Notes under the pieces: generated by a model
What the model saw: only the letters and a program-made list of their open reading frames with translations
Database searches by the model: none
Told to the model about the DNA's origin: nothing
Shown: positions 2,575 through 53,665 of the stretch, piece after piece
How positions within the stretch are numbered: the stretch's first letter is position 1
Layout: each line of letters opens with the position of its first letter
Made by a program: the position numbers and the translations under genes
Origin: an uncultured Pelagibacteraceae bacterium
Lineage (GTDB): Bacteria; Pseudomonadota; Alphaproteobacteria; Pelagibacterales; Pelagibacteraceae
Assembly (NCBI GenBank): GCA_902536385.1
Contig: CACAWY010000002.1
Coordinates: 1-64,000, forward strand
Direction: 5' to 3'
DNA: 64,000 nt

Positions 2575-3102
2575 TTAATTCATTTGATGTTTCTTTATTA
2601 AATCTTCAACTTTTATCTCTTCATAATGCTCGAAAGGCTGAACAATCCATGGGTTACTTTCTAACCTTTCCGCACAAAAATCAGGTTCAAAGGTTGAATC
2701 TTTTTTCTTCCATAAAACAGCTGTTTTAATTTCTTTTATATTTCCTTTTAGCGGTGGATATTTTTTTAACCAATCAATACTTTTATTTAATGTAACCCCA
2801 GTATCAGATAAATCATCGCAAAGTAGAATGTTGCCTTTCATCTCTTGAACTGTTGAACTCATTTCCCTAGAAAAAACTAAATCTCCTTGTTGATCTTCAA
2901 CACCTTCGCCAGAATAAGATTCTACGGCTAAATAAGCACATTTTAATTTGAAGACACGGCTTAATACATCAATGATTGGAGCAGCACCTCTCATAATTCC
3001 AATTAGCAGATTGGGTTTAAAACCACTTTTATAAACTTGTATTGCTAGTTTTTCTACGATTTGATTGTACTCTTTCCAATCAATGATAAGTTTATCTGCC
3101 AT
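2575..3102 (-). CDS. Xanthine/guanine-type phosphoribosyltransferase
   Basis: 175 residues, type I PRTase fold. The PRPP-binding motif is 'ILLCDDLSDTGVTL' (two acidic residues, then D-T-G-x-T), and 'LIGIMRGAAPIIDVLSR' is the PPi-binding loop. It transfers the phosphoribosyl group from PRPP to a 6-oxopurine to make the nucleotide. Overall layout resembles the Gpt/HpcT-like enzymes found in alphaproteobacteria and archaea; base preference (xanthine, guanine or hypoxanthine) is inferred from that resemblance and from the purine permease next door. It is divergent from the DUF1330 gene, with 33 bases between them. Confidence 0.85.
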   Translation of the reverse strand: MADKLIIDWKEYNQIVEKLAIQVYKSGFKPNLLIGIMRGAAPIIDVLSRVFKLKCAYLAVESYSGEGVEDQQGDLVFSREMSSTVQEMKGNILLCDDLSDTGVTLNKSIDWLKKYPPLKGNIKEIKTAVLWKKKDSTFEPDFCAERLESNPWIVQPFEHYEEIKVEDLIKKHQMN

Positions 3103-48045: not shown

Positions 48046-48305
48046 TATTTCCTTATATTAAGTTGTTTTAAAACTTTTTGATATGACTCAGCATTTTTCT
48101 TTTTAAGATAAGCAAGAAGCTTTTTTCTTTTGTTAACCGATTTTGTCAAACCTAAAGTTGAATGTTTGTCTTTTTTAAATTTTTTAAAATGATCAGAAAG
48201 TTTAGTAATTTTATCTGTAAGCAAACCTATCTGAATTTCTGTCGAGCCAACATCTTTATCATGTATAGCAAGGGATTTAATTGTATCTTTTTTTTTCTTT
48301 ATCAT
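48045..48305 (-). CDS. rpsO: 30S ribosomal protein S15
   Basis: 86 residues. '[36 protein letters not shown]' and '[27 protein letters not shown]' are diagnostic for S15, which binds the 16S rRNA central domain and in E. coli represses its own translation. ATG 48303-48305 lies inside the end of rbfA (29-base overlap), where truB would normally intervene. Confidence 0.96.
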
Positions 48306-48675: not shown

Positions 48676-50855
48676 TAGATTGATCTTTCTATTTTCTCCG
48701 CTAAATATGATTCTATTACATCTTTTTCTTTAAAGTCTATAAAGTCTTTTATACTCACTCCACACTCTAGACCAGTGCTCACTTCTTTAACTTGATTTTT
48801 TTCTCTAAAGAGTGTCAATATTTCTCCATTATGAACCACAACACCATCTCTTATAATTCTTGCTTTTGATTTACTTTTAATTTCTCCACTTATGACTTTT
48901 GAACCAGCAATCTTGCCGGCACTAGAAACTTTAAATATTTTTTGTATTTCTGCCGTGCCAAGAATAGTTTCTCTAATTTCTGGTTCTAGAAGACCTGAAA
49001 GTGATTTTTCAATGTGATTTAAAGCTTCATAGATAATATTAAAAAATTCGATTTTAATTTTTTGATCTTCTGCTAATTTTTTTGCTTCCCTATTAGGCTT
49101 GACATTGAAACCAATTAAAATCGCATTTGAGGCTTTTGCAAGATAAACATCTGTTTCATTTATCATTCCTATATCTGATAAAATAATTTTGGCCTCTACT
49201 TCTTTGTGATTTATTTTATCAATTGCCATTTTGAGTGCTTCGCTAGACCCTTGTACATCAGATTTTATAATTATATTTAGCTCTTCTTTGTTTTTTACGT
49301 TATCAAATAAAGTAGTTTTATCTTTCGCTATTAAATTATTTTTCGCTGTATCACTTTTTTTAAATTCAGACATTTTTTTTGCCTCATCCTCATTTTTTGT
49401 AACCATAAATTCTGCACCAGCATAAGCTGAGTCGTTCATGCCTAAAATCTCTACTGGGGCTGAGGGTAGTGCTTCATTTACTGTTTTTCCCTCGTGATTT
49501 ATCATTGCTCTAATTTTTCCCCACGTGTCCCCACAAATAAAATAATCTCCTCTTTTTAGTTTACCATTGCTTATTAGAATTGTTGAAACTGGTCCTTTAC
49601 CTTTGTCAATCTTCGACTCGAGCACGACTCCTCTAGCTCTATCAGTATATGAGGCTTTTAAATCTAATATTTCTGACTGTAGTAAAATACTTTCCTTTAA
49701 TTTATCTAAATTTAATTTTTTCAAAGCTGATACTTCCACAAATAAAGTATCTCCACTCAAGTCTTCTGCTATTAATTCGTACTGCATCATTTCATTTTTA
49801 ATCTTGCTGATATTTTTTTCAGGAAGATCACATTTATTTATAGCCACTATTATTGGAACTTTTGCAGCTTTAGCGTGTTTAATTGCCTCTACTGTTTGTG
49901 GTTTAATTCCATCATCTGCAGCAACTACTAGAACAATTATATCTGTAATTTTAGAACCTCTAGCTCTCATTTCTGTGAAGGCTGCATGGCCTGGAGTGTC
50001 AATAAATGTTATCAATTTTCCAAGATCAGTTTCAACTTGATAAGCTCCTATATGTTGGGTAATACCACCGTACTCACCTGAAACAACATTTGAGTCACGC
50101 AAAGAGTCAAGCAAAGATGTTTTTCCATGATCGACATGTCCCATGATTGTTACAACTGGAGGTCTCAATTTTACTTCACCTTCAAATTTTTCTTTAAGTT
50201 TTACAGACTCAATGGATGGCTTATCTTCTATAATGGGTTTGTGCCCAAATTCTTTAACAATATATTCTGCAGTATCTTTATCAATATTATGATTTATTGT
50301 TGCCACTACTTTCATATTAAATAAAAATTTAATGATCTCGCTTGATTTTTCTGCCATTCTATTTGATAGTTCTTGAATAGTAATTTGCTCAGGAATTTTT
50401 ACCTCCTTTATTACTTTCTTAAATTCTTTCTTGTCTTCTCCTTCAGGTTTGTTTTTTTTCTCTTTTAATCTCGCTCTTCTGACAGATGCTAAACTTCTTT
50501 GTTTAATATCAATTTCTTCAACATTCAAAGCTCTTGATACTGTCAATTTAAAATCTCTTTTATCAACCGGACTTTTTAGTTTAAGTTTACTTTTTCCACC
50601 TGGTTTATTATCTTTTTTTATAAAATCTTTTGTTGCTTGTTGTTCAATAAATTTTCTCTCAAAATTTTTTCTCTTAAATTCCGAATTAGTATTTACATTA
50701 GGAGTTGAACCATATTTCGTTGGCTTACTTCCTCTAAAGGGTTTTTTTTTATCAATAGAGAATGATTTTTTTCCTGATGATTTTAGTGAACTTGTATCTA
50801 TTTTTTTTCTTAGACCAGATGATATTGTAAGTGTCTTCTTTTTATCTTTAACCAT
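48675..50855 (-). CDS. infB: Translation initiation factor IF-2
   Basis: 726 residues, shorter than enterobacterial IF-2 owing to a reduced Lys/Ser-rich N-terminus (about 1-150). The G domain is complete: G1 'GHVDHGKTSLLD', G3 'DTPGHAAF', G4 'INKCD'. The later domains include 'SDVQGSSEALKMAI' and the C-terminal fMet-tRNA-binding end. It delivers initiator tRNA to the 30S subunit. Four bases from nusA; the ylxR gene that usually separates them is missing. Confidence 0.97.
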   Translation of the reverse strand: MVKDKKKTLTISSGLRKKIDTSSLKSSGKKSFSIDKKKPFRGSKPTKYGSTPNVNTNSEFKRKNFERKFIEQQATKDFIKKDNKPGGKSKLKLKSPVDKRDFKLTVSRALNVEEIDIKQRSLASVRRARLKEKKNKPEGEDKKEFKKVIKEVKIPEQITIQELSNRMAEKSSEIIKFLFNMKVVATINHNIDKDTAEYIVKEFGHKPIIEDKPSIESVKLKEKFEGEVKLRPPVVTIMGHVDHGKTSLLDSLRDSNVVSGEYGGITQHIGAYQVETDLGKLITFIDTPGHAAFTEMRARGSKITDIIVLVVAADDGIKPQTVEAIKHAKAAKVPIIVAINKCDLPEKNISKIKNEMMQYELIAEDLSGDTLFVEVSALKKLNLDKLKESILLQSEILDLKASYTDRARGVVLESKIDKGKGPVSTILISNGKLKRGDYFICGDTWGKIRAMINHEGKTVNEALPSAPVEILGMNDSAYAGAEFMVTKNEDEAKKMSEFKKSDTAKNNLIAKDKTTLFDNVKNKEELNIIIKSDVQGSSEALKMAIDKINHKEVEAKIILSDIGMINETDVYLAKASNAILIGFNVKPNREAKKLAEDQKIKIEFFNIIYEALNHIEKSLSGLLEPEIRETILGTAEIQKIFKVSSAGKIAGSKVISGEIKSKSKARIIRDGVVVHNGEILTLFREKNQVKEVSTGLECGVSIKDFIDFKEKDVIESYLAEKIERSI

Positions 50856-50859
50856 AACA

Positions 50860-52410
50860 TTATTTATATACTATCTCTCTTGCAGCCATTATTAAATCGT
50901 CAGCTTCCTTTCTCGATAAAGAAAATTCTTCAAGGTATCCTTCTACACGTATTTTTTTACCTTTAATTTCATCAAAACCTCCGATTAATTCATCAGAAGA
51001 CAAATCAGCAAAATCACTTAACTTTTTGATATTTTTCTGTCCAAGTATCACAAGCATTCCTTGCGTCATTCCCTTCAAGCTTATCAATTGATCGTCGACA
51101 CCAAGTTCTTTTAGCTTAATTGCAACTGCCTCTTTCTCTTTAACCAGTGTCTCTTTAGATCTTTTTATAAGTTCAGACGCAGTTTCTTCATCTATAGCAT
51201 CGATTTTTGATATTTCTTCTGATTTTGATTGAGCTATTTCTTCTACAGAAATAAATCCTTCTGATACAAGAAGCTGACCTAATGTTTCATCAACTTCTAA
51301 ATTTTTAATAAGCGCTTCTGTTCTCTCTTTAAATTCATTTTGTCTTCTTTCTGAGTCCTCTTTGTCTGTCAAAATATCTATTTCGAAGTTCGTTAATTTT
51401 GATGCTAAGCGAACATTTTGACCTCTTCTTCCAATAGCTTTACTTAAATTTTCTTCAGATAGAATTATATCGATTCTTTTATTATCTTGATCTATTAATA
51501 CCTTTTGAATTTCTGCTGGAGATAGAGATTCTGAGATTAAAGTAGGGAGATCCTCTGTCCATTTTATAATGTCAATTTTTTCACCGTGCAATTCATTTAC
51601 TATGGTTTGTACTCTGCTTCCTCTCATTCCTACACAGGCTCCAACGGGATCAATAGAAGAGTCTTGTGAATAAACACAAATTTTTGCTCTGCTACCAGGA
51701 TCTCTTGCTACCGATTTAATCTCTATAGTTCCCTCATATATTTCGGGAACTTCTTGAAAAAATAATTTTGCCAAAAATTGTGGATGTGCTCTTGATAAAA
51801 ATATTTGGTGTCCTTTTAACTCTTTTTTAACTTCGTAACAATACGCTTTAACTCTATCGCCTGTTTTAAGTATTTCTCTTGGAATAAGTTCATCTTTTTT
51901 TATTACTCCCTCTGCTTTACCTAAGTCAATAATCACGTTTCCATACTCTAATCTTTTTATGATCCCGCTTAAAATTTGTCCTTGTTTGTCTATAAAATCT
52001 TCGTATTGCCTATTTTTTTCTGCTTCTCTTACTCTGCTGCTTATTACCTGTTTTGCGCTTTGTGCTGCTATTCTTCCAAAATCTATTTGTGGCAGTTCCT
52101 CAAATATTTTATCACCTATCTTTAAACTATTATTATTAGGATCAATTTTATTTGCTTGTTCTATGGTAATTTCTCTAGCCCCATCTTCAACCTTTTCAAC
52201 AATTTCAAGAACTTTTTTGATTTTTATCTCTCCAGTCTCTCTATCAATCACTACTTCAATGTTATTATCGTTACCAAATTTTGTAAGCGCAGCTTTTTGG
52301 ATTGCACTTTCCATGGATCCAATTACCAATTCCTTATCAATAGACTTTTCGTTTGCTACTGCTTCTACTATTCTGAGTAGTTCTAATTTATCTAATCCTC
52401 TATTTAACAT
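50860..52410 (-). CDS. nusA: Transcription termination/antitermination factor NusA
   Basis: 516 residues from ATG 52408-52410 ('MLNRGLDKLELLRIVEAVANEKSIDK'); the frame remains open further but through the terminator hairpin, so the internal ATG is chosen. N-terminal RNAP-binding domain, S1 ('GQILSGIIKRLEYGNVIIDLG'), two KH domains ('GSRVQTIVNELHGEKIDII', 'AIGRRGQNVRLASKL') and two C-terminal acidic repeats. It modulates pausing and intrinsic termination. First gene of nusA-infB-rbfA-rpsO-pnp; rimP is not upstream. Confidence 0.96.
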   Translation of the reverse strand: MLNRGLDKLELLRIVEAVANEKSIDKELVIGSMESAIQKAALTKFGNDNNIEVVIDRETGEIKIKKVLEIVEKVEDGAREITIEQANKIDPNNNSLKIGDKIFEELPQIDFGRIAAQSAKQVISSRVREAEKNRQYEDFIDKQGQILSGIIKRLEYGNVIIDLGKAEGVIKKDELIPREILKTGDRVKAYCYEVKKELKGHQIFLSRAHPQFLAKLFFQEVPEIYEGTIEIKSVARDPGSRAKICVYSQDSSIDPVGACVGMRGSRVQTIVNELHGEKIDIIKWTEDLPTLISESLSPAEIQKVLIDQDNKRIDIILSEENLSKAIGRRGQNVRLASKLTNFEIDILTDKEDSERRQNEFKERTEALIKNLEVDETLGQLLVSEGFISVEEIAQSKSEEISKIDAIDEETASELIKRSKETLVKEKEAVAIKLKELGVDDQLISLKGMTQGMLVILGQKNIKKLSDFADLSSDELIGGFDEIKGKKIRVEGYLEEFSLSRKEADDLIMAAREIVYK

Positions 52411-52421
52411 TTTATTGCCCC

Positions 52422-52446
52422 TAAAAAAAAATGGGCAAGTGCCCAT
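52422..52446 (-). terminator. Strong intrinsic terminator directly before nusA
   Basis: On the minus strand ATGGGC-ACTT-GCCCAT is followed by nine consecutive T. The stem is 6 bp with four G-C pairs and the T tract ends 12 bases before the nusA start codon. It terminates metK transcription and, because a candidate promoter lies upstream of it, could act as an attenuator for the nusA operon. Confidence 0.85.
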
Positions 52447-52452
52447 TTTGAA

Positions 52453-52469
52453 TTTCAATAATATTGAAA
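52453..52469. promoter_or_regulatory. 17-base perfect palindrome in the nusA leader
   Basis: TTTCAATA-A-TATTGAAA is a perfect dyad between the candidate -10 element and the terminator hairpin. In RNA it would fold poorly (two G-C pairs only), so a protein-binding site is as plausible as an RNA hairpin. Confidence 0.5.
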
Positions 52470-52470
52470 G

Positions 52471-52499
52471 TATTTAAAAGAAAATTATGGTTTTTTCAA
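52471..52499 (-). promoter_or_regulatory. Candidate sigma-70 promoter of the nusA operon
   Basis: On the minus strand TTGAAA (52494-52499) and TAAATA (52471-52476) are separated by 17 bases. The -35 lies two bases after the metK stop. Predicted start near 52464-52465, giving a leader of ~55 bases that contains the intrinsic terminator. A+T-rich context means this is only a candidate. Confidence 0.5.
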
Positions 52500-52501
52500 G
52501 T

Positions 52502-53665
52502 TCACAGTTTAAATAAATCAACTTTATCGGTTTTTTCCCAAGAAAATTCACCCTTATTTGTTGGTTTTCTACCAAAGTGTCCGTACGAGGATGTTATTTG
52601 GTATATAGGATTATTCAAGTTTAACATTTCTCTGATTCCTCTGGGAGACAAATTAAAATTTTCAATTATTATATTTTTAATTTTTTCAACTTTAGCCTCA
52701 TCTTCATTTTCTAATTTAATTAAAATAGATAACGGTTTTGATACTCCGATCGCGTAAGCAAGTTGAATTAAACATGTATCGGAAACTCCTGCAGCTACTA
52801 TGTTTTTAGCTAAGTATCTTGCAGCATATGCTGCAGATCTATCTACTTTTGTTGGGTCTTTTCCAGAAAATGCTCCACCACCGTGAGGAGCAGCTCCACC
52901 ATAAGTATCAACAATAATTTTTCTACCAGTTAACCCGGTGTCTCCATCAGGTCCACCAATTATAAATTGACCAGTTGGATTTATGTAAATTTCTTTTTCT
53001 TTCAAACCCTTTAAATACTTTTTTGGTATTGATTTATTTATATATGGAACAACTAGTTCTCTAACCTGTTCTTGAGATAAATCTTTGGAATGTTGTGTTG
53101 ATATTACCACTGAAGTCACTTGTGAAGGTTTATATTGATTGTACATCATTGTAACTTGACTTTTTGAATCAGGTTCTATTCCTTTCAAATTACCGCTTTT
53201 TCTATCCTCGGCCATTAATCTCAAAATCTTGTGAGAAAAGTGAATTGGAGCAGGCATTAAATCTTCAGTTTCTTTACAAGCGTAACCAAACATAATACCT
53301 TGATCGCCTGCGCCCTCATCTTTATTTTTTTTAGAGTCTACACCCATAGCAATATCTGCTGATTGCTCATGTAAATGGGACTCTATATTTGCAGTTTTCC
53401 AACTAAAACCTTTTTGATCATAACCTATATCTTTTATACAATTTCTTACATTATTTATTAGTTCATCTTTATCTAATTTTGGCCCTCTAGTTTCTCCAGC
53501 TAAAACAACTTTATTTGTAGTTGCTAAAGTTTCGCAAGCAACTCTAGAAAAGGGATCTCTTGACAAATATGAGTCTACAACCATGTCTGAAATTCTATCG
53601 CAAACTTTATCTGGGTGACCCTCTGAAACAGACTCACTAGTAAACAAATAATTTTTATTAGTCAT
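52502..53665 (-). CDS. metK: S-adenosylmethionine synthetase
   Basis: 387 residues. '[22 protein letters not shown]', '[15 protein letters not shown]' (the family hexapeptide region), '[24 protein letters not shown]' and '[19 protein letters not shown]' are all intact. It makes SAM from methionine and ATP; the SAH recycling enzyme AhcY is also in this window. Its start overlaps lnt by 8 bases, leaving no room for a leader riboswitch. Confidence 0.97.

Follow-up and report, generated by a model that had tools for sequence, protein, structure and literature searches.

The nusA operon of SAR11 bacteria is preceded by a terminator hairpin that, to judge from comparison across relatives, is a real and strongly conserved element, and that we treat as a rimP-leader of the general published type, a member from which rimP has been lost. 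We estimate a probability of roughly 60 per cent that this SAR11 form attenuates the nusA operon as an intrinsic terminator close to the promoter, under feedback from NusA. The anatomy of the hairpin, its conservation, its single copy per genome and its staying with nusA where RimP is undetectable were obtained directly. The kind of attenuator is known, here in a rimP-less setting; what is new and useful is that NusA and RimP come apart in SAR11. The hairpin would also be a strongly conserved regulatory RNA element within very streamlined ocean genomes.

Results

In the window (the whole stretch of 64,000 nucleotides that was analysed), open reading frames and Pfam matches give the minus-strand gene order lnt, metK, nusA, infB, rbfA, rpsO, pnp. 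The upstream gene metK (52502–53665, assigned by Pfam, stop codon at 52504–52502) lies on the same strand as nusA (50860–52410, ATG at 52410), whose product carries NusA_N, S1, and KH domains by Pfam and has its best named matches, at 94 per cent identity, in uncultured Pelagibacteraceae. The 91 nt from the metK stop to the nusA ATG contain a −35-like box, a weak −10-like box, a palindrome, the hairpin with its U9 tract, and a ribosome-binding site read from the sequence as AGGGG (52418–52422, minus strand); AGGAG-like sites are common to the nusA leaders of most relatives. In the window, the interval from metK to nusA holds no rimP gene. Further down the operon infB follows nusA directly, with zero genes between them (50855–50860); ylxR occupies that place in many alphaproteobacteria. 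The rbfA and rpsO genes overlap by 29 bases (48277–48305) with truB absent between them, and TruB_N was not found in the window's genome, which is 81.5 per cent complete.

The hairpin itself, AAAAUGGGC-ACUU-GCCCAUUUU (52428–52449, minus strand; as DNA AAAATGGGC/ACTT/GCCCATTTT, read from 52449 to 52428), bears the rimP-leader motif and was recognised from the sequence, a consensus scan, the predicted fold and its relatives. The first-pass annotation, which proposed a candidate NusA-dependent attenuator at this place, had given the terminator a stem of 6 bp; the count is instead 7 bp with four G-C pairs (AAUGGGC/GCCCAUU), or 9 bp when the further flanking A-U pairs are included. It had correctly placed the end of nine U at 12 bases before nusA, the U9 tract running from 52431 to 52423 on the minus strand, with its first U bases overlapping the lower stem and its end 12 nt from the ATG. 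A consensus scan of 14 kb returned three terminator-like sites, the hairpin being the strongest, but 3.9 such sites are expected from shuffles under this loose criterion, and the consensus scan alone therefore proves nothing. A stricter scan found just three sites in the 64-kb window, and the predicted fold of the leader RNA is better by 2.6 sd than those of its shuffles. The 974-kb genome has a single match to the pattern GGGCN4GCCCNT5 and none to the reversed control.

Conservation in relatives, which had been named beforehand as a check on the attenuator, proved to be strong. Among 91 distinct Pelagibacteraceae leaders, gathered by a match to NusA with no hairpin required, none lacks the hairpin: the UGGGC-N4-GCCCA stem is invariant in all of them and is followed by U9 in 90 and by U10 in one, with the four loop bases taking 19 different forms. 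A second SAR11 family contributes 16 leaders with GUGGG-loop-CCC(A/G)C-U9, and 27 further loci from nine genera all have the GGG...CCC form and a U tract. Each of the 34 genomes of the genus with an identified nusA has exactly one match to TGGGN6CCCAYT7, just upstream of nusA, and no match to the control pattern. Pair −2 is A-U in Pelagibacteraceae and G-C in the second SAR11 family and in 18 alphaproteobacteria that have rimP, and pair −1 is U-A, U-G, or C-G across groups; on this comparison the helix is preserved through letter changes between groups. The 5′ U at pair −1 is nearly constant and its partner alternates between A and G, a hint that the 5′ arm of the hairpin may be read as sequence.

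Most Pelagibacteraceae leaders have U9 directly joined to AGG(A/G)G, 12–13 nt before the ATG, and such an abutment is what one might expect of a post-transcriptional role, in which the hairpin guards the 5′ end of the message or the U tract beside the ribosome-binding site aids translation of nusA. We hold this to be very improbable because the spacing to the start codon varies, from 11 to 24 nt among Pelagibacteraceae leaders and from 4 to 130 nt to the gene elsewhere (PMC2965389); the element moreover has the shape of a terminator, and termination has been observed at the homologous site of S. agalactiae (PMC4448216).

Another reading is that the hairpin is a mere 3′ terminator of metK, with nusA transcripts arising through read-through or at a promoter in another place, given that it stands on the metK strand, 50-odd nt past the stop codon, where metK transcripts would end anyway. 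However, the end of metK lies 720–860 nt off in the second SAR11 family and in several Pelagibacteraceae genera, where another gene intervenes (in the second family a Methyltransf_4 gene of TrmB type) and the hairpin is still found 10–30 nt before nusA; for three Pelagibacteraceae genera other than the window's the distance to metK is about 720–750 nt. The motif also precedes rimP in E. coli and in alphaproteobacteria, and a plain 3′ terminator need not hold its stem letters and its U9 tract (once U10) in 91/91 leaders. It is because the upstream gene changes that we disfavour a metK terminator and rate it as quite improbable. By the same comparison the hairpin goes with the nusA operon and not with the upstream metK, which supports the first-pass view of a terminator-type attenuator that belongs to nusA, since the hairpin stays when the upstream gene changes.

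The sigma-70-like promoter that had been proposed for this interval stands in part. Its −35-like hexamer TTGAAA (52494–52499, minus strand) falls inside the conserved block TCTTGAAAAAACC, and a CTTGA box is found in 87 of the 91 leaders, nearly always 53–58 nt before the hairpin. The −10-like hexamer TAAATA (52471–52476, minus strand), at a 17-nt spacer, is weak, however, and the site is absent among the consensus-scan matches listed for the minus strand. When leaders are compared at fixed spacing the −10 is poor in the window's genus, TAAAAA and TAAATA being the commonest hexamers at such spacing in relatives; good promoter hexamers could be read by eye in the sister genus g137 (TTGAAT-N16-TATATT) and in the second SAR11 family (TTGATT-N17-TATAGA). 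From these sequences a promoter probably lies upstream of the hairpin, and with transcription starting near 52464 the terminated RNA would be about 40 nt long.

Two other features of the leader were considered and set aside. Pairing of the CUUGAAAAAA block with the U tract and AGG, as seen in the predicted fold, is not favoured; the second SAR11 family keeps CTTGA without the A tract, and a −35 box thus fits the conserved block better than pairing does. The 17-base palindrome reported by the first-pass annotation is present (TTTCAATATTATTGAAA, 52453–52469, minus strand), but it recurs in only one of 91 relatives, and its reading as an operator is rejected. Palindrome arms of equal length arise in about 1.5 per cent of shuffles, and the feature is probably not functional and best read as chance.

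The RimP N-terminal domain was detected in 126 of 144 genomes of the class and in none of 61 SAR11 genomes (many of them incomplete, 16 at least 90 per cent complete), and the RimP C-terminal domain was detected in none of 98 SAR11 genomes, all at least 90 per cent complete except the window's own; a SAR11 RimP too diverged for both domain models would have escaped these searches. With rimP not detectable in SAR11, the hairpin directly precedes nusA. Outside SAR11, 12 further rimP-less alphaproteobacteria were found to have nusA, and in two of these GGUGGGUUAUCCC(A/G)CC-U8/9 stands directly before it, in two there are looser forms, and in eight there is no recognised motif before nusA; retention of the hairpin in the absence of rimP is thus not universal. 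The two loci with GGUGGGUUAUCCC(A/G)CC-U8/9 (L090 and L096) come from different families and have almost identical hairpins.

Discussion

Where the hairpin is kept without rimP, RimP is an unlikely sensor. That SAR11 has no detectable RimP and yet keeps the hairpin before nusA speaks against RimP being the product that is sensed in this group and favours NusA, which becomes the natural suspect.

In the mechanism that we propose, transcripts would begin some 20 nt upstream of the hairpin and, together with any read-through from metK, would reach UGGGC-N4-GCCCA-U9, where many would stop at a length of about 40 nt and some would continue into nusA-infB-rbfA-rpsO-pnp. At the hairpin, polymerase-bound NusA would make pausing and termination stronger, perhaps through contact with the 5′ arm and its conserved UGGGC; high NusA would turn the operon down, and low NusA would turn it up. 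What we infer is that termination takes place in vivo, where transcription starts, and that the effector is NusA; the termination step draws on form and conservation, and the NusA step on published work in other bacteria together with the argument from rimP loss. The idea of NusA feedback is plausible by that analogy and is not new, having been published before, and the present reading agrees with the earlier work on the homologous element (PMC2965389; PMC4448216), as it does with the NusA feedback reported for the E. coli operon.

Several observations weigh on the other side. The uninterrupted U9 suggests strong termination unaided, which counts against NusA dependence, and in B. subtilis the U tracts of terminators that depend on NusA are often interrupted. 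Further points against the feedback model are the eight of 12 rimP-less alphaproteobacteria outside SAR11 that have no recognised motif, and the weak −10. The operon also codes for IF2, RbfA, S15, and PNPase, and the hairpin could be a genuine operon attenuator that answers to an effector other than NusA, for example IF2, S15, NusG, or the elongation state of the polymerase. This we consider unlikely, as among the operon's products NusA is the one with a known effect on intrinsic termination and is the reported regulator of the E. coli operon, its own, while the short leader shows no room for an alternative antiterminator structure.

NusA feedback through the hairpin can also be put in a stronger form, to which we give somewhat less than even odds: the element would itself be a NusA sensor whose UGGGC 5′ arm is read by NusA, some 40 nt making up a minimal feedback circuit that each genome has at one site, and SAR11 would be a natural rimP knockout. 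If this is true, SAR11 reveals the purpose of the rimP-leader.

The rimP-leader was described as a terminator that stands before rimP-nusA-infB and whose GGGc...gCCC stem is unusual, in most cases with no visible antiterminator and 4–130 nt from the gene in other bacteria; it was presented as the commonest predicted bacterial attenuator, and its effector was left open in 2010, with NusA as the best candidate factor, RimP as the alternative, and feedback already proposed (Naville and Gautheret 2010; PMC2965389). The SAR11 hairpin shares the stem and U stretch (GGGC-ACUU-GCCC, U9), likewise shows no antiterminator, and at 12 nt falls within that range of distances from the first gene of the nusA-infB operon. 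It differs in that nusA comes first instead of rimP, in a shorter stem flanked by A-U pairs, and in its uninterrupted U9. The feature that gives the leader its name, rimP directly downstream, is absent, RimP being undetected in the genome and in the order, but motif and operon are identical and membership is accepted on that account. The first-pass suggestion that the attenuator replaces the long rimP-containing leader of other bacteria is accordingly wrong: the rimP-leader element itself has stayed, and rimP appears to have gone. A search of Rfam at the gathering threshold gave no match for the window and a relaxed search gave sub-threshold hits only; the rimP leader family RF01770 scored 14.1 bits (E 5.6) against a threshold of 47 bits, so that membership is in the general published type and not in the Rfam family. 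Operon position and terminator type are shared with RF01770, whereas that family is a 102-position model titled for gammaproteobacteria.

Among 30 alphaproteobacterial loci that have rimP, the strict motif occurs in 18, on the coding strand and 71–162 nt before the RimP domain; the only other motif matches, at four loci, are found close to that position but on the opposite strand, and we take them for mirror images of the same hairpin. Checked directly in E. coli K-12, the motif GGGCUUUAGGCCC-U7 ends 17 nt before the rimP start, and the metY-rimP-nusA-infB leader thus resembles that of SAR11 in placing it shortly before the first protein gene; the E. coli leader differs in its upstream part, which has a tRNA gene, more than one promoter (several in all), and another terminator in tandem. 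That second terminator, CCCCGATTTATCGGGG-T6, is found just upstream of the rimP-leader hairpin (L223, about 3058–3090, minus strand), and a tandem inverse terminator motif of this kind was described by Naville and Gautheret (PMC2965389).

The main text of Meyer et al. (2009), on structured RNAs of Pelagibacter, does not mention nusA, rimP, or metK, and our literature search found no start-site or terminator maps for SAR11 among the papers listed. The closest mapped counterpart for comparison is the rimP-nusA leader of S. agalactiae, in which rimP is present and the start and end were mapped experimentally, whereas the SAR11 leader is known from sequence; in that leader termination occurs at an intrinsic terminator 31 nt after the start, a length similar to the RNA of about 40 nt expected here, and NusA feedback has been proposed there as well (PMC4448216).
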